Assembly: GCA_003669555.1 (NCBI GenBank)
Contig: QWOS01000016.1
Coordinates: 1 to 64,000, forward strand
Reading direction: 5' to 3'
DNA: 64,000 bases
Source: Planctomycetota bacterium
Lineage (GTDB): Bacteria > Planctomycetota > Planctomycetia > Gemmatales > Gemmataceae
Below are positions 49,906 to 63,216 of this stretch, one piece after another. Position 1 is the first letter of the stretch. Every line of letters starts with the position of its first letter. Position numbers and translations under genes: made by a program. The notes under the pieces are model-generated. The model was not told the DNA's origin. It saw only the letters and a list, made by a program, of their open reading frames with translations, and searched no databases.

Positions 49906-51006
49906 GTGACGAATTCTGTTTTCCCGCTACGATTGGCATTCATGTTGCAACGCCTGCTTCTGATCGCCGGGGGAATGTACCTGCTGGGGGCCACCTGCTG
50001 GGTGGTGTGGTCGGCGCGTGTCCACGATTCCGGCCAGGCGGTGAGCCTGCTCAACGCGGCCTGCGACCCTACGCGCGAGCTCTGGCGCGAGATCAACAGC
50101 CGGTTCACCGAGCACCTGCTGCGCGAGCGGGGCGAAACAGTGAAGATCCGTCAGTCGCACGGCGGTTCGTCCAGCCAGGCCCGGGCAGTTATCGATGGTC
50201 TCGATGCCGATGTCGTCACCCTGGCATTGTGGAGCGACACCGAGGCCATTCATCAGAAGGGGCTTATCGACGAAGGCTGGGAGGAAAGGCTGCCCAACCG
50301 TTCGCTGCCGTTTGTCTCGACCATTGTTTTCGTGGTGCGGAAAGGCAATCCGCTGCAGATAGCCGATTGGCCTGACCTCGTGCGCGAGGGGGTGCGGGTG
50401 ATCACCCCCAACCCCAAAACTTCGGGCAACGGAAAATGGAGCTTGTTGGCCGCCTACGGTTCGGTGCTGCTGCGCGGGGGGTCTTCAGCCGAAGCCGACG
50501 CGTTTCTTGAGCGGCTTTTTGCCGGCGTGCCTGTGCTCGACACCTCGGCCCGGGCCGCCACCATGACTTTTTCGCAGAAGCGCATTGGCGATGTGCATCT
50601 CACCTGGGAGAACGAGGCCTATCTGGAAGTGGCTGAGGCCAAGGGGGCGCTCGAGATTGTCCGGCCTCCCATCAGCGTGCTGGCCGAGCCGCATGTGGCG
50701 GTGGTGAGTGCCAACACCAGGCGCCGGGGCACGGTGCATGTGGCCGATGCGTACATGCGCTACCTGTACGGTGAAGAAGCTCAGGAGATCATCGCCCGTA
50801 ACTACTACCGCCCCACCAGCCCTGAGGCCTGGGCCAAGTACGAGAACTTCTTCGGCGAGCTGGAACTGTTTCCGGTGTCGCGACTCGCTCCGGGTGCGAT
50901 CGATTCTGCCGAGGTGTGGCGTGAGCTGGGGAATCGCTTTTTCGCCGAGGGGGCGTTGTTCGACCGCATTTATCTCAAGCTTCATGGCGGGGTGAAGGTG
51001 CCATGA
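49906..51006 (+). CDS. cysP: sulfate ABC transporter substrate-binding protein
   Basis: A 366-aa periplasmic sulfate/thiosulfate-binding protein. The membrane leader (LQRLLLIAGGMYLLGATC) precedes RQSHGGSSSQARAVIDGLDADVVTLAL, the anion-binding motif of Sbp/CysP, and ITPNPKTSGNGKWSLLAAYG, the second signature. It ends in FFAEGALFDRIYLKLHGGVK. GTG at 49906 is the chosen start; an ATG at 49942 is nearer the membrane leader, and neither has a well-spaced ribosome-binding site. The stop overlaps the permease gene by 4 bp. First gene of a cysPTW set. The symbol cysP rather than sbp is a convention. Confidence 0.9.
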   Translation: MTNSVFPLRLAFMLQRLLLIAGGMYLLGATCWVVWSARVHDSGQAVSLLNAACDPTRELWREINSRFTEHLLRERGETVKIRQSHGGSSSQARAVIDGLDADVVTLALWSDTEAIHQKGLIDEGWEERLPNRSLPFVSTIVFVVRKGNPLQIADWPDLVREGVRVITPNPKTSGNGKWSLLAAYGSVLLRGGSSAEADAFLERLFAGVPVLDTSARAATMTFSQKRIGDVHLTWENEAYLEVAEAKGALEIVRPPISVLAEPHVAVVSANTRRRGTVHVADAYMRYLYGEEAQEIIARNYYRPTSPEAWAKYENFFGELELFPVSRLAPGAIDSAEVWRELGNRFFAEGALFDRIYLKLHGGVKVP

Positions 51007-51827
51007 GCAGAATCGCCCGCCGGGTTTTACCCGGTTTCCGTCTGAGTCTGGGCTATACGGTTTTTTATCTGAGCCTGCTGGTGCTGATCCCGCTGGTGGC
51101 CTGTTTTCTGAAAGCTGCCGAGCTTTCCTGGGCGGAGTTCCTGCAAGCCGCCTGGTCGGCCAGGGCCCGGTCAGCCTACTGGCTCACCTTCGAGTGCGCC
51201 CTGGTGGCGGCGCTAGTGAACCTGGTGCTGGGGCTGGTGGTGGCATGGGCACTGGTGCGCTATCAGTTCCCGTTCAAGACCATGATCGACGCCCTGGTGG
51301 ATGTGCCGCTGGCACTGCCCACGGCGGTGACCGGCCTGGTTTACGCCAGCCTGTATGTGCAAGACGGCTGGCTGGGCCAGTTTCTGGTGCCGCTAGGGCT
51401 GGAGGCTGCCTACACCAAGCTGGGAATTGTGCTGGTGCTGATTTTCACGGGGTTTCCCTTTGTGGTGCGGGCCGTGCAACCGGTGCTGGCGGAACTCAAT
51501 ATCGAAGAGGAAGAGGCGGCAGCGGTGATGGGGGGATCGCGCTGGCAGACTTTCCGCTGGGTGATTTTCCCCAATCTGTTTCCCGCGCTCCTGGCCGGTT
51601 TCACCCTGGCCTTCGCGCGAGGCGTGGGTGAATATGGCAGCGTGGTTTTCATCTCCAGCAACATGCCCTTCAAGACCGAGATTGCCCCGGTGCTGATCGT
51701 CTCCAGGCTGGAGGAGTTTGCCTACCGCGAGGCGGCGGCAGTGGCGGTGGTGATGCTGGGCTTCTCTTTCCTGCTGCTCACCCTGATCAGCCTGGTGGAA
51801 CGATGGAGCAAAAATCATGAGGAATGA
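51003..51827 (+). CDS. cysT: sulfate ABC transporter permease CysT
   Basis: A 274-aa inner-membrane permease (CysT, also called CysU) with six or so helices. Signatures are LVDVPLALPTAVTGLVYASL, FPFVVRAVQPVLAELNIEEEEAA with an EAA loop (GGSRWQTFRWVIFPN) and FARGVGEYGSVVFISSN. Overlaps the binding-protein gene by 4 bp and cysW by 11 bp. Together with CysW it forms the membrane channel. The ATPase CysA is not encoded next to it. Confidence 0.93.
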   Translation: MSRIARRVLPGFRLSLGYTVFYLSLLVLIPLVACFLKAAELSWAEFLQAAWSARARSAYWLTFECALVAALVNLVLGLVVAWALVRYQFPFKTMIDALVDVPLALPTAVTGLVYASLYVQDGWLGQFLVPLGLEAAYTKLGIVLVLIFTGFPFVVRAVQPVLAELNIEEEEAAAVMGGSRWQTFRWVIFPNLFPALLAGFTLAFARGVGEYGSVVFISSNMPFKTEIAPVLIVSRLEEFAYREAAAVAVVMLGFSFLLLTLISLVERWSKNHEE

Positions 51828-52719
51828 TTCCGTCGCCGCCGGGCCAGTCTCTCCGTCGGCACTGCCTGTCGTGGTGGTGCCGGCATACATCAAGCCTCCC
51901 TCACCTGCCCGCAACGACCCTGCCTGGGTTCGTTACACCGTGATTTCCATCACTTACCTGGTGGTGGGATTGCTGGTGGCGGTGCCTCTGGCGCATGTCT
52001 TCCATCAGGCATTCAGCGCTGGTATTGGCAGCTATTTCCAGAAGCTGTTCGGCGACAAGGATACCCGTCACGCCATCTTTCTCACCCTCATGGTGGCCCC
52101 GGTTTCTGTTGCCATGAATGTGATTTTTGGCGTGCTGGCAGCCTGGCTGGTGTCGCGCTTCCGTTTTCCCGGCCGGGCCTTGCTGGTGAGTCTGATCGAT
52201 CTGCCGATGTCTATTTCGCCCGTGGTGGCGGGCCTGGTTTTCATGCTGGTGCTGGGCCTGCAATCGCCTTTGGGGTCCTGGCTACGCGACCATGGCTGGC
52301 AGATCATTTTCGCCCCGCCCGGGTTGGTGCTGGCCACCGCTTTCATTACTTTCCCGCTGGTGGCGCGTGAACTGATCCCGCTGATGGAAGCCGATGGCGC
52401 TGACGAGGAGATGGCGGCGCTGAGCCTGGGTGCCAACGGCTGGCAAATGTTCTGGCTCGTGACCGTGCCCAATATCCGCTGGGGCCTGCTCTATGGCATT
52501 ATCATTTGCAATGCCCGGGCCATGGGTGAATTTGGCGCTGTGCATGTGGTTAGCGGCAAGATCTCAGGGCAGACTGACACGCTGCCATTGCGTGTGGAAA
52601 AACTGTTCCAGGAATACGATCTGCCTGGCGCTTTTGCTGCCGCCAGCATTCTCACGCTGTTGGCCCTGCTCACCCTCATCGCCAAGGCCATCCTGGAGCG
52701 GAAGGTCAACCAGGGTTGA
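51817..52719 (+). CDS. cysW: sulfate ABC transporter permease CysW
   Basis: A 300-aa permease. A Pro-rich N-terminal 30 residues precede the helices. CysW-type motifs are LIDLPMSISPVVAGLVFMLVLG, FITFPLVARELIPLMEADGADEEMAALSLGANGWQMFW (EAA loop, shortened here) and NARAMGEFGAVHVVSGKISG. Overlaps cysT by 11 bp, suggesting coupled translation, and its 3' end overlaps the convergent EamA gene by 14 bp. No cysA follows; the ATPase must be supplied from elsewhere. Confidence 0.93.
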   Translation: MRNDSVAAGPVSPSALPVVVVPAYIKPPSPARNDPAWVRYTVISITYLVVGLLVAVPLAHVFHQAFSAGIGSYFQKLFGDKDTRHAIFLTLMVAPVSVAMNVIFGVLAAWLVSRFRFPGRALLVSLIDLPMSISPVVAGLVFMLVLGLQSPLGSWLRDHGWQIIFAPPGLVLATAFITFPLVARELIPLMEADGADEEMAALSLGANGWQMFWLVTVPNIRWGLLYGIIICNARAMGEFGAVHVVSGKISGQTDTLPLRVEKLFQEYDLPGAFAAASILTLLALLTLIAKAILERKVNQG

Positions 52720-53831: not shown

Positions 53832-56525
53832 TCAGGAATCAGTCTGCACCCCGGCATTGACTACCTTGCGGATCCGTTCCCGGCATTCGTCGAGATGGGC
53901 GCGAGCCGTGTCATCTTCCGCCACCGCCGGGTTTCCCAGGGCCCCATCGATTTTTTTCGCCAGTTCATTCAGGTGCAGGCGGGCCAGGCTGCGGGCATCG
54001 GGCGGGGTATTTCGCGCGCCCTTGCCGAGCACCAGGCTGGCGAGCACCTGAATGTGCTCGCGTTGCAGGTTGCGGCGGAGGTCTGAGGGAATCACACCCT
54101 TGCCGTCGCGGGAGGGCAGGTCGGTCCAGATGCCATCGCTGAGGGCGCGGAAAATATCAGCTATTTTCAGGGGCCTGGCATTGGCAGGAATCTGGAGATC
54201 CATTTTGAAGGCTGATTCCTGCACCCGGGTGAGCACCGCCGGGCTGGTGAGCTGGTTGAGGGCGATCCGCTGGATATTGAGCACACGGGCGTTGACAGGG
54301 TAGTCTACCCCGCCATCCACCACATCCTCGTTGCCCCAGTGGTACCAGCGGTCGGCACCCAGCTTGCGCAGCAGTGCCGGGCTGAACTGGAAGGCCTTGT
54401 CGGCAAGGATCCGTTCCTGCAGGAATTTCAGGGCCTCGCGCTGGCGGGCCCACTCCACCGGCACCAGCGGATCGCGGGCCTGCGGGTCGTTGCGATGGTC
54501 GCGGTGGTAGTACTCGCCACCCACATAACCAGCCGCCAGGTAGGCTGCGTTGCCATACTGGTTGAGCAGCATCGAGAAAGCCTGCCGCACCCGCTGGTAG
54601 CCTTCGCCCGGCGATGAGGCCTTGTCGGCCAGATCGATGAAAAGCTGTTCGGCCAGGGCCATGCGGTCTTGCGCGAATCGCAGCGGGTCGGCACCCAGGT
54701 CCCACATGTTCACCTTGGGATCACTGCTGGACAAGTCTTCATCGGTGGCGTAGTCGATACCTGCCTTGGCAGCCGTTTTGGCGATGGCCCGCAGGGCGTC
54801 GTGCTCGCCCTCGGTCCCGCCTGCCAGTGGACGGTAGGCGTATTCGATGGCCAGGTAATCGTACGGCCCCAGGGTGGTGGTGAAGTAATCGCCCTGCTTG
54901 ACGCCTTTGGGAGCCAGATTGATGGGGGAGTAATCCATCACCGAGCCCACCAGCCCCTGCTTGCGGGTGATGGTGGTGTCGTGCAACTGCTCATTTTTCA
55001 GCATGGTGCTGGCCTTGAAGTTGTGGCGCAGGCCCAGGGTGTGGCCTACCTCGTGCATGACCGTCTCCTTGATGGCCTGTTGCAGCAATTCATCAGGAAC
55101 TTTGTCGCCGGGAACCATCTGGCCGGCGGCGGCCATGGTCATCGCACCCATGGCCAGTTCGTGGCGCATGTGCGAGGTGCACTGGCACAGTCCGTGTCGG
55201 GCGGCCAGATGGATGAAGCGTTGCTGGGCCGAGTCGCTGCTGGGTGCGCCCCAGCCAGCCAGGGTGCTAGCAGGATCCCCCGGCACCCTGCCCAGCCCCA
55301 GCCCCTGCTTCAGGGATTGCATGCTGCTGGCGGGCGCCGTCCCTGATGGACCAAACAATTGATGCTCCTGGCGCCAGAACCGGACCATGCTGGCGTCGAA
55401 GATGATATCGGCGTCGATGATCTCCCCAGTGAGTGGATTGGCGCGGGATGGCCCCATGGCAAAACCACGGTCCGTGGTGATCCAGCGGAAGGTGTTGTAA
55501 TTGATATCCTCGGGATCAAATTCTTCGCTTTCCTGCTGGCGCACCTCGATGGCGTCGCGGAAGCCGATCTTCTCAAAGGCCTTGTTCCATTCGAGAATGC
55601 CTTCGCGCACGCTGGCGCGATACTCCTCGGGCACCGAGCGCTCGATCCAGAAGACGATCTTCTTTTTCGGGGCGGAGAGCCTGGACGGGTTTTTTGGGTC
55701 GAGCGGCTCGGCGCGCTCCAGCCGCCAGCGGTTGATGTGCCGCACAAAAGCCGATTCCTGGCTGTCGGTGGAGAAGTCTTTCACCACGCTGAGAAAATGG
55801 CCGACACGGTCATCGGCCAACCGGGGCAGGTAGCCACCCTCGGGCAATGGCGTCAGGCCGTAGTGGATCACCACACTGTTGCCGCGGGTGTCGATCACGC
55901 TGTCATCGGTGCCGCGGCCCGAGTAGGTGGCCAGCAGGTCCAGCTCCAGGTTGCGGGGGAAGACCTTCACTTTGGCCCAGGTGCTGCGCGAGGCGTCGAA
56001 ACTTCCCATGCCCAGTTGGGCCAGATCGTTCATGAATATGTCGTTCAGGCTGATAAGGACCGACTGCCTGCCTGAATGGATGCTGATGATCTTCAGAGCG
56101 GTCAGCACGGAATCGGTGTAGGTGGTGGCCACAGCCAGGGCAGCGGGGGAACCGGCCTTGGCCTGGAAGCGCACATTACGACGCACCAGGTGCACCTTGT
56201 CGCCCACGCGGCGGAAAAAAACCACCCACTGCTCATCAAAATTGAGGGTATGGCCACCCATGCCGGCACCCTTGGCCACCGCCACAGGCAACAGCATCGG
56301 TTTCTCGAACTGGTCGGCACGGATCTCCGCCATCAGGCGGTCTTCCTTCCAGTGCAGGCGGAAAAGGCCCTCGCTTTCCCTGGCTCCCTTGGTGACGGTG
56401 TCGAAATCCTCGAACTTTTTGGGGTCGGAGGTAGTCGGGTTGCCCTGCCCCTGGACAAGACTGGTGGTCATGGCCCCAGAAACCAGGCACAGGAACATGA
56501 GAAAGCCAGAGGACAAGGGGCGCAT
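53832..56525 (-). CDS. zinc-dependent metalloprotease, DUF5117/DUF4953-type
   Basis: An 897-aa exported protein. Signal peptide: PLSSGFLMFLCLVSGAM. Residues about 40-300 match the DUF5117-type N-terminal region (GLFRLHWKEDRLMAEIRADQ, RDTRGNSVVIHYGL-like block). The catalytic domain has the metzincin motif HEVGHTLGLRHNF (H491, E492, H495, H501) with the later VMDYSPIN Met-turn. The C-terminal DUF4953-type part includes NQYGNAAYLAAGYVGGEY and DLPSRDGKGVIPSDLRR. Family members are secreted or periplasmic zinc peptidases. It is a single gene, divergent from the TPP-enzyme gene across about 240 bp. Confidence 0.93.
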   Translation of the reverse strand: MRPLSSGFLMFLCLVSGAMTTSLVQGQGNPTTSDPKKFEDFDTVTKGARESEGLFRLHWKEDRLMAEIRADQFEKPMLLPVAVAKGAGMGGHTLNFDEQWVVFFRRVGDKVHLVRRNVRFQAKAGSPAALAVATTYTDSVLTALKIISIHSGRQSVLISLNDIFMNDLAQLGMGSFDASRSTWAKVKVFPRNLELDLLATYSGRGTDDSVIDTRGNSVVIHYGLTPLPEGGYLPRLADDRVGHFLSVVKDFSTDSQESAFVRHINRWRLERAEPLDPKNPSRLSAPKKKIVFWIERSVPEEYRASVREGILEWNKAFEKIGFRDAIEVRQQESEEFDPEDINYNTFRWITTDRGFAMGPSRANPLTGEIIDADIIFDASMVRFWRQEHQLFGPSGTAPASSMQSLKQGLGLGRVPGDPASTLAGWGAPSSDSAQQRFIHLAARHGLCQCTSHMRHELAMGAMTMAAAGQMVPGDKVPDELLQQAIKETVMHEVGHTLGLRHNFKASTMLKNEQLHDTTITRKQGLVGSVMDYSPINLAPKGVKQGDYFTTTLGPYDYLAIEYAYRPLAGGTEGEHDALRAIAKTAAKAGIDYATDEDLSSSDPKVNMWDLGADPLRFAQDRMALAEQLFIDLADKASSPGEGYQRVRQAFSMLLNQYGNAAYLAAGYVGGEYYHRDHRNDPQARDPLVPVEWARQREALKFLQERILADKAFQFSPALLRKLGADRWYHWGNEDVVDGGVDYPVNARVLNIQRIALNQLTSPAVLTRVQESAFKMDLQIPANARPLKIADIFRALSDGIWTDLPSRDGKGVIPSDLRRNLQREHIQVLASLVLGKGARNTPPDARSLARLHLNELAKKIDGALGNPAVAEDDTARAHLDECRERIRKVVNAGVQTDS

Positions 56526-56769
56526 GACAACCTGCTTTCGGAAGATAGTCTGGTCAGAGTGTCGTTCAGGTTAGCTGGAGTTTGCCGGTTAGGCAATCTG
56601 CCGGCCCGGGGCGTTTTGGTGGGTGCCGGAGGCTTTCGGGGCATTGCAACCGGCACAACCGCCACAGACGGCAGTTCCAGAAGCCCAGTCCGCCGGCCCG
56701 CCAACCGCCGACCCATGCGCGGCTTTTGGTTCGTCGATGGATGTTGGTATCCACGGCAGGAGGCCGCTC

Positions 56770-58623
56770 ATGTTTCCCGTCCATCGTCGCAACTTGCTCA
56801 AGACTGTGGCCGTCAGCCTGCCAGCCCTGATGGCCCAGCCCGCCGAGGGGCGCGTCACCCGGGCCGGGCATGTGCGCGGCGTTCTCACTGGCGCCCGGGC
56901 TCTGGTGGAGGCGCTGCAATCTGAAGGTGTGGAGTGCGTCTACGGCATCCCGGGTGCGCAAGCCAATGAGTTTTGGGACACGATGAAGCAGCGCGGGCTG
57001 CCGTATATGCTTTGCACCCACGAATTTGCGGCGGCCACCATGGCCGATGGCTACGCCCGCAGCACGGGCAAGCCAGGAGTGCTGGCGGTGGTGCCAGGTC
57101 CGGGTGCCACCAACGCCTGCACCGGTCTGGGCGAGGCCCTGCTCGACAGCATTCCCCTGGTGGCACTGGTGGGCGATGTGGCGCGAGGCGAGAAGTACCG
57201 CTCGTTTCAGGTGCATGAAATCCCGGTCCATCTGGTGATGGAGGGCGTTTGCAAAAAGGTGCTGCGGATCACCTGTGTCGATGAGATACCGGGGGTGGTG
57301 CATGATGCCTTTCGCATCAGCCAGGAGGGAGAACCCGGGCCGGTGGCGGTGATGGTGCCCTACACGCTGCTGATCGAGACAGCTCATTTCAATGCCCCGC
57401 CCGATAGTGGGGTGGGCCGTTTCTGGAGCGATGATTGTTTTGCCCGCGCGGTTGAGCTTCTGGCCTGCCAGAAGCGCCGCATCGGCATCTATGCCGGGCT
57501 CGGCTGCATGGACCATAGTGGCAACCTCACGGCGGTGGCCGAAATGCTCCAGGCCCCGGTGGCGACCAGCGTGTCGGGCAAGGGTGTCATCGACGAGCGG
57601 CATCCCCTGTCGGTGGGCTGGGGCTACGGGCCGGCTGGCAGCAGGGTGGCTGAGGAGATCTTCGCCGGGGTGGACACCATTCTGGCTGTGGGTGTGCGTT
57701 ATAGCGAAGTTTCGACCGGTTTTTATTCCATACCGGAGAAGGCATGCGTGATCCATGTCGATTCTTGCGCTGACAATCTCAACCGGGTGGTGCCCGCCAC
57801 GCTGGCGGTACACGCTGACAGCGGTCTGTTCCTGTCGGCCTTGCTGGCAGAGTCACCCCGGGTGGCCCGGCCCGACAACCCCCGTTTGACGGGCTGCATC
57901 GAGGCGGCACGGGTCCGCCAGTCGGCGGTGCACAGGGCCAGCCATGCGCACCCGCGCAAGGGGGTGTGCGGCTTCGATCCCATGCACCTGATCCTGGCGC
58001 TCAACGAAGCCAGAAGCGAAGACTCGCTGGTGTTCGTGGATGTGACGGTGAGTGAGCACTGGGCCGCCGAAGCCTTCACGGTCCGCCTGCCTCGCACCTA
58101 TTTCAACCCCACCGACAACCAGGGGATGGGTTGGTCGATCCCGGCTGCCATCGGCGCGGCGCGGGTGCATCCTGGCCGGCAGGTCTTCACGCTGACGGGT
58201 GATGGATGCTTTCTGATGGCTGGGCAGGAACTCAGCACCGCGGCCCGCGAGTGCCTGCCGGTGAAATTTTTCATCCTTGACGATCACGCCTATCATTACA
58301 TGCAGTTGTTGCAGGATGCTGCCTACGACCGGACCACGGCCACCCACCTGGCCCGGCTCGACTTCGAGGCTTTGGCCCGGGGCTATGGGGTGGATTACGC
58401 GGTGATCACGCCGGGAGACGATTTGCTGCCCACGGTGGCGGGTATACTGGCGCATCCGCGGCCGATGCTGGTGCAGGTGAAAACCGAGTACACCTCCAGG
58501 CCGGTGCGCTGGCTCGAGTCAACCCGGGCCCGCTACACCAAGGAATTGAGCGTGGGGCAGAAGTTGCGCTTTGCTTCGCGTCTGGGCGTTCGTTCGTTGC
58601 GAATACGGGACAGTAGTGATTGA
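56770..58623 (+). CDS. Tat-type acetolactate-synthase-like ThDP enzyme
   Basis: A 617-aa thiamine-diphosphate enzyme of the acetohydroxyacid synthase/oxalyl-CoA decarboxylase superfamily. The N-terminal domain has ECVYGIPGAQANEFWD, THEFAAATMADGYARSTGK with the catalytic Glu (E85), and VPGPGATNACTGLGEAL. The ThDP domain has LTGDGCFLMAGQELSTAARE (G477, D478, G479), and the usual closing Asn pair is replaced by LDDHAYHYM. The leader HRRNLLKTVAVSLPALMAQ resembles a Tat signal, unusual because ThDP enzymes normally work in the cytoplasm. AGGAGG lies 6 bp before the ATG at 56770; the frame extends upstream to 56623 without such a site. Substrate unknown. Confidence 0.85.
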   Translation: MFPVHRRNLLKTVAVSLPALMAQPAEGRVTRAGHVRGVLTGARALVEALQSEGVECVYGIPGAQANEFWDTMKQRGLPYMLCTHEFAAATMADGYARSTGKPGVLAVVPGPGATNACTGLGEALLDSIPLVALVGDVARGEKYRSFQVHEIPVHLVMEGVCKKVLRITCVDEIPGVVHDAFRISQEGEPGPVAVMVPYTLLIETAHFNAPPDSGVGRFWSDDCFARAVELLACQKRRIGIYAGLGCMDHSGNLTAVAEMLQAPVATSVSGKGVIDERHPLSVGWGYGPAGSRVAEEIFAGVDTILAVGVRYSEVSTGFYSIPEKACVIHVDSCADNLNRVVPATLAVHADSGLFLSALLAESPRVARPDNPRLTGCIEAARVRQSAVHRASHAHPRKGVCGFDPMHLILALNEARSEDSLVFVDVTVSEHWAAEAFTVRLPRTYFNPTDNQGMGWSIPAAIGAARVHPGRQVFTLTGDGCFLMAGQELSTAARECLPVKFFILDDHAYHYMQLLQDAAYDRTTATHLARLDFEALARGYGVDYAVITPGDDLLPTVAGILAHPRPMLVQVKTEYTSRPVRWLESTRARYTKELSVGQKLRFASRLGVRSLRIRDSSD

Positions 58624-58677: not shown

Positions 58678-59952
58678 GTGCGACCTGTTGTCATTGTCGG
58701 TGGTGGAATGGCGGGGCTGGCCTGCGCGCGGGTGTTGCACCGCCAGAATATACCTTTTCTGCTGTTTGAGGCCAGTCATCAGCCAGGTGGCCGGGTGGCC
58801 ACCACCGTGGTGGATGGCTACCGCCTCGATGCCGGCTTCCAGGTGCTGCACACGGCCTACCCCGAGGCCAGGCATGCGCTCCATTACCCCTCGCTGCACC
58901 TGCAAAAGTTCTTCCCGGGCGCGCAGGTGTATCGCCAGGGTGAGTGGCACCTGATCGCCGACCCGTGGCGCAAGCCACTGTCGGCACCGGCCACGCTGGC
59001 CGCCCGCATCGGGGGGGTGCGTGACAGGTTGCTGCTGGCCCAACTGGTGGCTGATGTCTGCCTGGGCATGGTGGAGTCGCTCTTTGTGCGGGTGGACCTG
59101 ACCACCCGGCAGCGGCTGGAGGAGTTTGGTTTCTCAGCCGATTTCATCAACGGATTTTTCCGACCCTTTTACGGGGCGGTGTTTCTCGATCCGGAGCTGG
59201 GCACCTCGCGGCGGATGTTCGACTTCATGTTCCGGATGTTCGCCCAGGGCGATGTCACCATCCCGGCCAAGGGGATGAGCATGATCCCCCTGCAGCTTCG
59301 TCTGGCACTACCCAGGCACTCGCTGGTCTTTGACACACCTGTCGAGCTGATCCATCCCGACCAGGTGAAACTGGCCGACGGCAGGGTGGTGGGAGCCCGG
59401 GCGGTTGTGGCGGCGATGGACGGCGATCAGGCCAGCACCATGCTCGGGCTGCCGCCCGTGCGTTTTCGCGCCACTACTACGCTGTATTTCACCACGGCCA
59501 CGCCGCCATTGGGCCGACCGATCATCGCCCTCGACGGCGACGGCACCGGGCCGGTGAATCACCTGGCCGTGCCCAGCCTGATCTCCGGGGAGTACGCTCC
59601 GGCCGGCAGGCACCTGGTGGCCTGCAATTGCGTGGGGCAGGCCGCTTTGGTGCCGGATGGGCCGATTGCCGACTCGGTGATGGAGCAGATGACCCGCTGG
59701 TTCGGGGGGCAGGTGGCTGACTGGAAGTTGCTGCGGATCATTCGCATCCGCCATGCGTTGCCGGCCCAGCCCCCTGGCTGGCTGGAGCCTGTCGATCGCC
59801 CAACCAAGCTCGCCTCGGGGGTGTTCATCGCCGGCGATTACCGTTCCACCTCCTCTATTGACGGCGCCCTGCGCTCGGGCCGGTTGGCGGCGGAGGCGGT
59901 GCTGGCCTGGGATGGTCGTGGCCGGCTGACACGACCCCGACCCGAACGGTAG
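58678..59952 (+). CDS. FAD-dependent amine-oxidase/PPOX-like oxidoreductase
   Basis: A 424-aa flavoprotein. It starts with VVIVGGGMAGLACARVL (GxGxxG dinucleotide motif) and FLLFEASHQPGGRVATT, then RLDAGFQVLHTAYPEA; the C-terminal GVFIAGDYRSTSSIDGALRSGRLAAEAVL is the second FAD motif. This layout is seen in phytoene desaturase, protoporphyrinogen oxidase and monoamine oxidase relatives; the substrate cannot be assigned. GTG at 58678 has GGGGGA 7 bp upstream. It follows the ThDP-enzyme gene by 54 bp on the same strand and may be cotranscribed with it. Confidence 0.9.
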   Translation: MRPVVIVGGGMAGLACARVLHRQNIPFLLFEASHQPGGRVATTVVDGYRLDAGFQVLHTAYPEARHALHYPSLHLQKFFPGAQVYRQGEWHLIADPWRKPLSAPATLAARIGGVRDRLLLAQLVADVCLGMVESLFVRVDLTTRQRLEEFGFSADFINGFFRPFYGAVFLDPELGTSRRMFDFMFRMFAQGDVTIPAKGMSMIPLQLRLALPRHSLVFDTPVELIHPDQVKLADGRVVGARAVVAAMDGDQASTMLGLPPVRFRATTTLYFTTATPPLGRPIIALDGDGTGPVNHLAVPSLISGEYAPAGRHLVACNCVGQAALVPDGPIADSVMEQMTRWFGGQVADWKLLRIIRIRHALPAQPPGWLEPVDRPTKLASGVFIAGDYRSTSSIDGALRSGRLAAEAVLAWDGRGRLTRPRPER

Positions 59953-61140: not shown

Positions 61141-62472
61141 ATGGAAACCATGGACTCACAACTAGCCCATCTGCCTTCACGCCGCGCCTTTTTGCAGGTG
61201 GGTGCCTCCAGCTTTTTGGGTACGAGCCTGGTGCGTGCCAACCCTGAGCCAGGTCGCAAGTCTGTCATCCTTGTTCTACTCACAGGTGGCTGCTCGCAGC
61301 TTGATTCCTTCGACCCCAAGCCGGATGCCCCCGCCGAGATCCGTGGCGAGTTTTCCACCATCTCCACCGTTCTGCCGGGGGTACGTTTTTCCGAGCACCT
61401 GCCCCTGCTGGCCCAGCGCATGAAGCATTGGGCCCTGGTGCGCAGCATGTCACACGAGCACAATGGCCATCTGCCCGCCACGCATCGCATCCTCACCGGC
61501 ACCCCCATGCCTGTGGAGCGGGGCAGTGATCTCGATAATGTGTTATCCCGCCGCGATTGGCCGTGCTATGCCGCCGGGCTGGCGGCTGCCCGGCCCAGGA
61601 CTGATGGTGTCCCCAGCGGGGTGACCTTGCCGCATGCGCTTATTGAGGGGCCGCTCACCTGGCCCGGCCAGCATGGGGGGTTCATCGGGCCTCGCTATGA
61701 TCCGTTGCTGGTGACCCAGGATCCCAACAGCCCCGCCTTCCGCATGGATTCGCTATCGCTGGCCGAGGGCACTTCGCTCGAACGGCTGGGGGACCGGCAA
61801 TCCCTGCTTGGCTCGCTCGACCGGGGTGACAACCCGGCCCGCATGCATCAGCACGCGGCCATGCGAATGCTCACCTCCGACCGGGTGGCCAAGGCTTTCC
61901 GGATGCAGGATGAGCCCGAGCGCAACCGCGACCGCTATGGTCGCACCCAGTTTGGCCAGACCCTGTTGCTGGCGCGTCGTCTGGTCCAGGCGGGTGTGCC
62001 GATGATCCAGGCGAATATGGGGATCGTGCAAACCTGGGATACTCATGTCGATAACTGGGGTCAGTTGAAGAACCGGCTGCTGCCCGGCCTGGACCGGGCC
62101 CTGGCGGGGCTGATCGATGATCTGGCTGCGGAAGGGATGCTCGACAACACTCTGGTGGCGGTGCTGGGGGAATTTGGTCGCACGCCGCGGATTTCCACCC
62201 TGCCAGGCAACACGGTTGCCGGACGCGATCACTGGGCTGCGGTTTATTCGGCGCTATTCGCTGGCAGCGGCGTGCAGGGTGGCCAGGTGATCGGCAAATC
62301 AGACAGCAAGGCCGCCTACCCGGTTACCCCGTCATTCACCCCGTACGATGTGGGCGCCACCATCTACCGCAGTCTGGGCATAGCTCCCGATACCGAAGTG
62401 ATCGACTCGCAAAACCGGCCATTCTTCCTGAACCGGGGCCGGGTGATGAGCCCGCTTTTCGGGGCAATCTGA
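61141..62472 (+). CDS. DUF1501 protein
   Basis: A 443-aa DUF1501 protein. The leader SRRAFLQVGASSFLGTSL is Tat-like. Core blocks are SVILVLLTGGCSQLDSFDPKPD, MSHEHNGHLPATHRILTG, LARRLVQAGVPMIQANMG, VLGEFGRTPRISTLPGN and GGQVIGKSDSKAAYP. It does not have a PSCyt1/DUF1549 partner beside it here. ATG at 61141 or 61150 are both possible starts. Probably exported to the periplasm; substrate unknown. Confidence 0.92.
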   Translation: METMDSQLAHLPSRRAFLQVGASSFLGTSLVRANPEPGRKSVILVLLTGGCSQLDSFDPKPDAPAEIRGEFSTISTVLPGVRFSEHLPLLAQRMKHWALVRSMSHEHNGHLPATHRILTGTPMPVERGSDLDNVLSRRDWPCYAAGLAAARPRTDGVPSGVTLPHALIEGPLTWPGQHGGFIGPRYDPLLVTQDPNSPAFRMDSLSLAEGTSLERLGDRQSLLGSLDRGDNPARMHQHAAMRMLTSDRVAKAFRMQDEPERNRDRYGRTQFGQTLLLARRLVQAGVPMIQANMGIVQTWDTHVDNWGQLKNRLLPGLDRALAGLIDDLAAEGMLDNTLVAVLGEFGRTPRISTLPGNTVAGRDHWAAVYSALFAGSGVQGGQVIGKSDSKAAYPVTPSFTPYDVGATIYRSLGIAPDTEVIDSQNRPFFLNRGRVMSPLFGAI

Positions 62473-62529
62473 CCGCCCGACCCTCTGCCCCTGCCCTTTA
62501 TCTTGGTAAGGCAGGCCGGTTATCATGGG

Positions 62530-63216
62530 ATGGACGAGCTAATGATGTGGGGGTGGAATGTGAGTTGCTGCCGCTGGCAGGTGGTGGTTTTCTGGCTGCT
62601 GGCGATCACTGGCTGCCTGGTGGACCTTGGCTCCAAAGAGTGGGTTTTTGCCGCCCTTCCGGAAGAGGATTTTTCCTCACCGGAGCAGTACGCCGGGGCT
62701 CATCATAGCCAGTACATTGGGGCCCACCACACCTTGTGGCAGGCTTCCGGCGATAACACGGACAACCAGCTGGTTCCCCCAGGTTTTCACCTGCATATCG
62801 CTTACCGGGTCGATGCCGAAGGCCATCAGGTGCCCCATGTCAACCAGGGGGCCCTGTTTGGGTTGGGAGGGCAGGCCTGGGGTGGGGTGGCCAATGGCGT
62901 TTTCGCTTTGGTGAGCCTGGTGGTGGCGGTGGCCCTGGGGTTGTATGTCACGCTCAAAAGCCTCGACCTGGGATGGCTGCTGACCCTGGCGCTGGGCCTG
63001 ATCGCCGGCGGGGCGGTGGGTAATCTGGTGGACCGGGTGCGCTTTGCGGGAGTGCGCGATTTTCTCCACTGGAACTTCCTGTTTGACTGGCCCATTTTCA
63101 ATCTGGCGGATGTTTTCCTGGTGATCGGCGCCGGGTTAATCCTGCTGGCCGGCATTCTGGCCCCGCCGCCGACCAAAAAACTGCTGGTGCCCCAGGCCAC
63201 TGGCACGGAAGCCTGA
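62530..63216 (+). CDS. lspA: lipoprotein signal peptidase (LspA)-like protein
   Basis: A 228-aa integral membrane aspartyl protease that removes signal peptides from lipoproteins. Conserved blocks are CLVDLGSKEW (D32), NQGALFGLG, AGGAVGNLVDRVRFAGVRDFLHW with the first catalytic Asp, and IFNLADVFLVIGAGLIL with the second. Four helices are seen. An extra polar insert of about 60 residues (from residue 46, ALPEEDFSSPEQYAGAHHSQ) lies between the first helix and the NQG motif, as in some planctomycete members. The ATG at 62530 is preferred over in-frame ATGs at 62542 and 62545 and a TTG at 62503. Confidence 0.88.
   Translation: MDELMMWGWNVSCCRWQVVVFWLLAITGCLVDLGSKEWVFAALPEEDFSSPEQYAGAHHSQYIGAHHTLWQASGDNTDNQLVPPGFHLHIAYRVDAEGHQVPHVNQGALFGLGGQAWGGVANGVFALVSLVVAVALGLYVTLKSLDLGWLLTLALGLIAGGAVGNLVDRVRFAGVRDFLHWNFLFDWPIFNLADVFLVIGAGLILLAGILAPPPTKKLLVPQATGTEA

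Follow-up and report, generated by a model that had tools for sequence, protein, structure and literature searches.

The window, a stretch of 64,000 nucleotides of Gemmataceae DNA, carries on its forward strand an open reading frame (positions 56770–58623; 617 amino acids and a stop codon) whose product has the domain order of a ThDP enzyme. Its ATG at 56770 lies six bases 3′ of an AGGAGG ribosome-binding site (56758–56763, + strand), which also precedes the ATG in the congeners L002 and L003; in three congeners the bases upstream of the ATG are alike only near this site. A longer in-frame reading frame from 56623 was rejected, as the homology with the orthologues starts at the ATG at 56770. 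This is the start that a previous sequence-only reading of this DNA had proposed from the AGGAGG site. Residues 1–27 (56770–56850, + strand) read MFPVHRRNLLKTVAVSLPALMAQPAEG and are predicted to form a Tat signal peptide. They are followed on the same strand by the ThDP PYR domain (TPP_enzyme_N, PF02776, E = 7e-37; residues 40–144, 56887–57201), the central domain (TPP_enzyme_M, PF00205, 6.9e-26; residues 225–358, 57442–57843) and the ThDP PP domain (TPP_enzyme_C, PF02775, 1.3e-34; residues 424–570, 58039–58479), the last with a GDG motif (477–479), an Asp-Asp pair (504–505) and a YHYMQxLQ stretch identified by residue comparison. The protein ends in an extension (58480–58620, + strand) for which the AlphaFold model shows two helices (580–592 and 595–609).

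The gene is adjoined by an FAD oxidoreductase gene (58678–59952), which the sequence-only reading had seen as a partner. This pairing is not supported: the oxidoreductase gene adjoins the ThDP gene in 5/106 distinct loci (four of the same genus and one of a near relative), and we rejected it as a conserved partner. Moreover, its Rossmann motif lies right at the N-terminus, so that the oxidoreductase has no signal peptide and would stay in the cytoplasm. Among the 106 loci, 69 of which offer over 12 kb of accessible flanking sequence, we found no conserved operon and no neighbour common to the whole clade; the neighbours are lineage-specific. On the upstream side, a divergent gene for a met-zincin (DUF4953/DUF5117; 53832–56525, − strand) with a Sec-like N-terminus is kept in 9/106 loci. 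In 19 loci (L069, L072, L073, L080 and similar), which appear to be Isosphaeraceae-type, an ABC-2 type permease lies downstream of the ThDP gene (at 211 bp or less in 16/19), with an ABC ATPase-like open reading frame behind it; this neighbour hints at a link to surface polymer export. Further along the window, a DUF1501 protein (61141–62472, + strand) begins with LPSRRAFLQVGASSFLGTSL, which also resembles a Tat leader, and is followed by a lipoprotein signal peptidase-like gene (62503–63216), named by eye. Positions 49906–52719 (+ strand) code for a sulfate/thiosulfate ABC importer-like set of a binding protein and two permeases, also named by eye from the translations.

We aligned the protein with its orthologues in the Gemmataceae, the Isosphaeraceae and the family to which strain Pan216 belongs (75 sequences with 47–81% identity to the window protein). 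Left out were L005, a partial locus, L065, which has no leader, and sequences present in duplicate; the starts of L067 and L084 were placed by hand. We take strain Pan216 to be Kolteria novifilia, a species entered in the taxonomy under Kolteriaceae. Rather than starting downstream near the ThDP domain, the orthologues keep the leader: Arg6 and Arg7 are invariant in 75/75, while most other leader positions vary. All six arginine codons are in use at these two sites, which means that the amino acid is conserved and not the DNA. The conservation of the pair is not due to chance. It also holds in all 76 of the named loci in which it can be counted (80 in total, with L112 and L171 lacking the N-terminus and L164 and L185 running off the contig), a set that overlaps heavily with the 75 orthologues and is not independent of them. 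The residue preceding the arginine pair is Ser (31), Asn (22), Thr (17) or Asp (3) in 73/75 members, the two others having Val and, in the window protein, the single His. This His counts against a Tat leader in the window protein, as does its hydrophobic stretch, which is short and contains prolines. A Shine–Dalgarno core stands before 59/73 of the family starts.

As a control, we applied a simple Tat rule (start codon, Arg-Arg, hydrophobic stretch, few charges) to the family and to other proteins. The rule is positive in 73/75 exported members (the failures being L018 and L084) and in 39/3344 neighbouring open reading frames. With the start-codon requirement relaxed, it is positive in 0/20 ThDP paralogues, which were taken from these genomes or their relatives and include the synthase of the window's own genome, and in 0/11 leaderless homologues. 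The translocase is present as well, TatC being found in the genome of the window (about 60% complete) and in 57/59 of the searched genomes. The same cell thus has a translocase and a protein with an arginine pair and a hydrophobic stretch near its real start, and the Tat-like leader claimed for this ThDP enzyme finds its confirmation in the orthologues, as far as sequence can provide it.

One could nevertheless see in the leader no more than an N-terminal extension, decayed or holding its two arginines by accident, on an enzyme that is cytoplasmic. The variability of the other leader positions would suit such a view, as would the Pfam TAT_signal model, which at E-values up to 0.1 matches 16/75 members and misses the window protein and 59/75 members overall; many of these leaders are therefore atypical for that Pfam model. 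This explanation is nonetheless very unlikely, because it does not account for an arginine pair that stays invariant under six codons, nor for the hydrophobic, little-charged stretch and the Ala-rich cleavage region that the clade keeps, nor for the lack of such a leader in all 20 ThDP paralogues. Equally, an enzyme made in two forms, a long exported one and a short cytoplasmic one, would require a second start. In 8/75 loci, a start that would omit the leader lies farther downstream behind a ribosome-binding core, which is what dual localization would need; 67/75 loci offer no such start, and its position is not conserved, so we consider this extremely improbable. Export of the protein by the Tat pathway is, by these comparisons, very probable.

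The region behind the arginine pair bears on the fate of the leader. A strict AxA motif occurs there in 61/75 members, compared with a mean of 46 and a maximum of 55 in shuffled sequences, and alanine occupies column 25 in 47/75 members and column 27 in 60/75. A putative signal peptidase I site follows AEG in the window protein (AEA in many relatives), and cleavage probably takes place there. The leader could instead remain uncut as a Tat-dependent anchor, holding the enzyme to the inner membrane or its invaginations from the periplasmic side. The AlphaFold model (mean pLDDT 87.6), in which the leader is otherwise poorly ordered, is compatible with this in showing a helix at residues 6–16, and so is the presence of several basic residues in the conserved helices of the C-terminal extension. 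In that extension, Arg604 and Arg608 are invariant, and the tail ends in Asp in 75/75 members (ND in 48, SD in 22 and DD in 5). However, the hydrophobic stretch looks too short for an anchor, and both the alanine of column 27 and the excess of AxA over the shuffled sequences fit cleavage. We thus regard an uncut anchor as unlikely and retain a cleaved Tat signal.

Behind the leader, the protein belongs by its sequence to the ThDP-dependent enzyme superfamily of the PYR/M/PP type. The TPP_enzyme N, M and C domains (residues 40–570) occur in order; the window protein passes the gathering cut-off for each of them, 75/75 members match all three, and the catalytic Glu85 and Gly477-Asp478-Gly479 are kept in 75/75. 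The sequence-only reading described these features correctly, and the Asp-Asp that it noted instead of the usual Asn-Asn is real and kept in 72/75 orthologues. The structure alignment drew on 66 of the family's sequences. Comparison of the structures with Foldseek and VIA-align groups the fold with acetohydroxyacid synthases (AHAS) and the HKA synthase BbmA. The two best structural matches, BbmA (PDB entry 8x3x) and AHAS (PDB entry 6lpi), both reach a Z of 40.2, and their alignments pass over the leader, starting at model residue 37. BbmA (PDB entries 8x3x and 8xod) superposes with an r.m.s.d. of 2.2–2.3 over 513–519 residues at 26% identity, a likeness of structure; among solved proteins it is also the one closest in sequence to the leaderless homologue L065. 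The catalytic subunit of acetolactate/acetohydroxyacid synthase (PDB entry 6lpi; TIGR00118) shares the three-domain ThDP fold, the catalytic Glu and the GDG motif; in the structural alignment it is 27% identical to the window model, and it is also the best PDB match by sequence.

This likeness does not extend to the signature residues of the synthases. For these, we set the exported clade against 11 canonical representatives encoded in the same and related genomes; Glu85 and GDG are kept. The AFQ of the synthases is QVH at 147–149 in 75/75 members, the Arg of RPGP is Glu188 in 72/75, a Lys is Tyr198 in 65/75, DDR is SEV at 312–314, NN is DD at 504–505, the Trp is Leu514 in 75/75 and GLGxMG is DNQxMG or NNQxMG. 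The residues characteristic of acetolactate synthases (AFQ, the RPGP Arg, DDR, NN and Trp) are thus all replaced in the exported clade, several of them in the central domain. In yeast synthase structures, several of these positions touch FAD or the substrate, and the enzyme would then presumably be FAD-free and act on a different substrate. TIGR00118, the best NCBIfam model, scores 296 bits against a cut-off of 538, and none of the acetolactate synthase cut-offs among the models listed is reached, all of them lying far above the scores of the window protein.

An exported acetolactate synthase with the adjoining FAD enzyme as its partner would agree with TIGR00118 being the best NCBIfam model and with 6lpi being the best PDB sequence match. 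We judge it highly unlikely, given the score below the cut-off, the replaced signature residues and the scarcity of the signal-less FAD gene next to its supposed partner. Moreover, the same genome encodes a separate canonical synthase with an NNQHLGMVVQW motif (L187), as do its relatives (11 rows). The label acetolactate-synthase-like thus holds for the fold, which the structural matches support, and fails for the identity: by its residues and its score, the protein does not qualify as an acetolactate synthase. The best reading is that of a ThDP-dependent 2-oxoacid decarboxylase or carboligase, probably FAD-free. As to the class of reaction, we tentatively propose that a small 2-oxo acid or aldehyde is decarboxylated non-oxidatively or undergoes carboligation, with no involvement of FAD, on the basis of the fold and of the residue roles in acetolactate synthase.

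The nearest sequence relatives are leaderless homologues with a YQLHE or YQLHD motif (L065, L207 and relatives), about 30–40% identical to the window protein. Like the exported clade, they have Gln147, His149 and Asp505 (9/9 rows), so that the Asp in place of the second Asn is common to both groups. Asp504 is peculiar to the exported proteins. Unlike it, they lack the Tat leader (0/11) and the YHYM stretch and have Arg, Asn or His at the position of Asp504. These homologues (L065:251-2035 and L207–L216) have a basic C-terminal tail and are scattered over other planctomycete families; in the four that were scanned, no NCBIfam cut-off was reached among the models listed.

A tree built from 57 rows sets all 26 exported members apart by one branch, with a support of 100/100 and in 100% of bootstraps, on a long stem of 1.26. 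Nine leaderless homologues, most of them with YQLHE or YQLHD, adjoin this clade. L217 and L218, which had been gathered with the leaderless homologues, are distant in the tree, L218 grouping with the synthases. We searched 59 relatives, 392 genomes of the phylum and 397 genomes of the class. At E-values up to 1e-90 the gene is found in 126/397 class genomes, distributed (by count from the listing) over the family of the window (81/95), a second family (f3; 42) and a third (f5; 3); 14/95 genomes of the window's family are without the gene at this cut-off, which counts against our reading. At E-values up to 1e-110, only 3/392 phylum genomes have a match, one of which is a leaderless homologue with 40% identity. 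We also considered spread by plasmids and rejected it: six plasmid records match at E-values up to 1e-60, and the five among the matches listed are all 31–32% identical, four being annotated as ilvG and one unannotated. The simplest reading is that the leader was gained once, in a common ancestor of the three families; since the root is the midpoint, the direction of the tree is itself inferred.

Taken together, we favour, with a probability of about 0.7, a distinct clade of ThDP enzymes with a conserved twin-arginine signal that would be made in the cytoplasm, carried by Tat and at work in the periplasm. The protein would fold in the cytoplasm and take up ThDP and a divalent metal there, the Tat translocase would carry it folded across the inner membrane, signal peptidase I would cut near residue 27, and the mature enzyme would decarboxylate or join 2-oxo acids or aldehydes in the planctomycete periplasm. 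Activity with ThDP outside the inner membrane is likely, at a lower confidence than export itself. Synthesis of ThDP is not known to occur in the periplasm, so a loss of the cofactor could not be repaired there, which is a point against; the enzyme would keep the ThDP that it took along. As to origin, we lean towards a scenario in which, in the ancestor of the Gemmataceae, the Isosphaeraceae and the Pan216 family, a synthase-like enzyme gained a Tat signal once and had its active site rebuilt (QVH, DD, YHYMQxLQ). Loaded with ThDP before export, it would now perform ThDP carbanion chemistry outside the inner membrane, in the enlarged periplasm, where 2-oxo acids or aldehydes would be decarboxylated or joined.

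The new part is the conserved Tat export, as the fold is already known. Planctomycetes have an enlarged and invaginated periplasm, and ThDP enzymes of this fold are, to our knowledge, treated as cytoplasmic. In the open-licence literature we found no conserved Tat-exported ThDP family, and the main text of a subcellular proteome of Tuwongella (PMC8567305) contains acetolactate, thiamin and twin-arginine zero times each. The window protein resembles NapA-type cofactor-bearing Tat substrates in its Arg-Arg leader and, if our reading is correct, in binding its cofactor before export. It differs in the kind of cofactor: most Tat substrates of Escherichia coli bind redox cofactors, according to PMC3712460, whereas here it would be ThDP. 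An export tag conserved across a planctomycete group means that a normally intracellular chemistry probably takes place outside the inner membrane, and since there are cultured members (Zavarzinella formosa, Limnoglobus roseus and Singulisphaera sp. GP187), direct testing is feasible. A clade-wide export signal on a ThDP enzyme would add to the kinds of cofactor that Tat transports and would imply an unrecognized periplasmic carbon reaction in planctomycetes.
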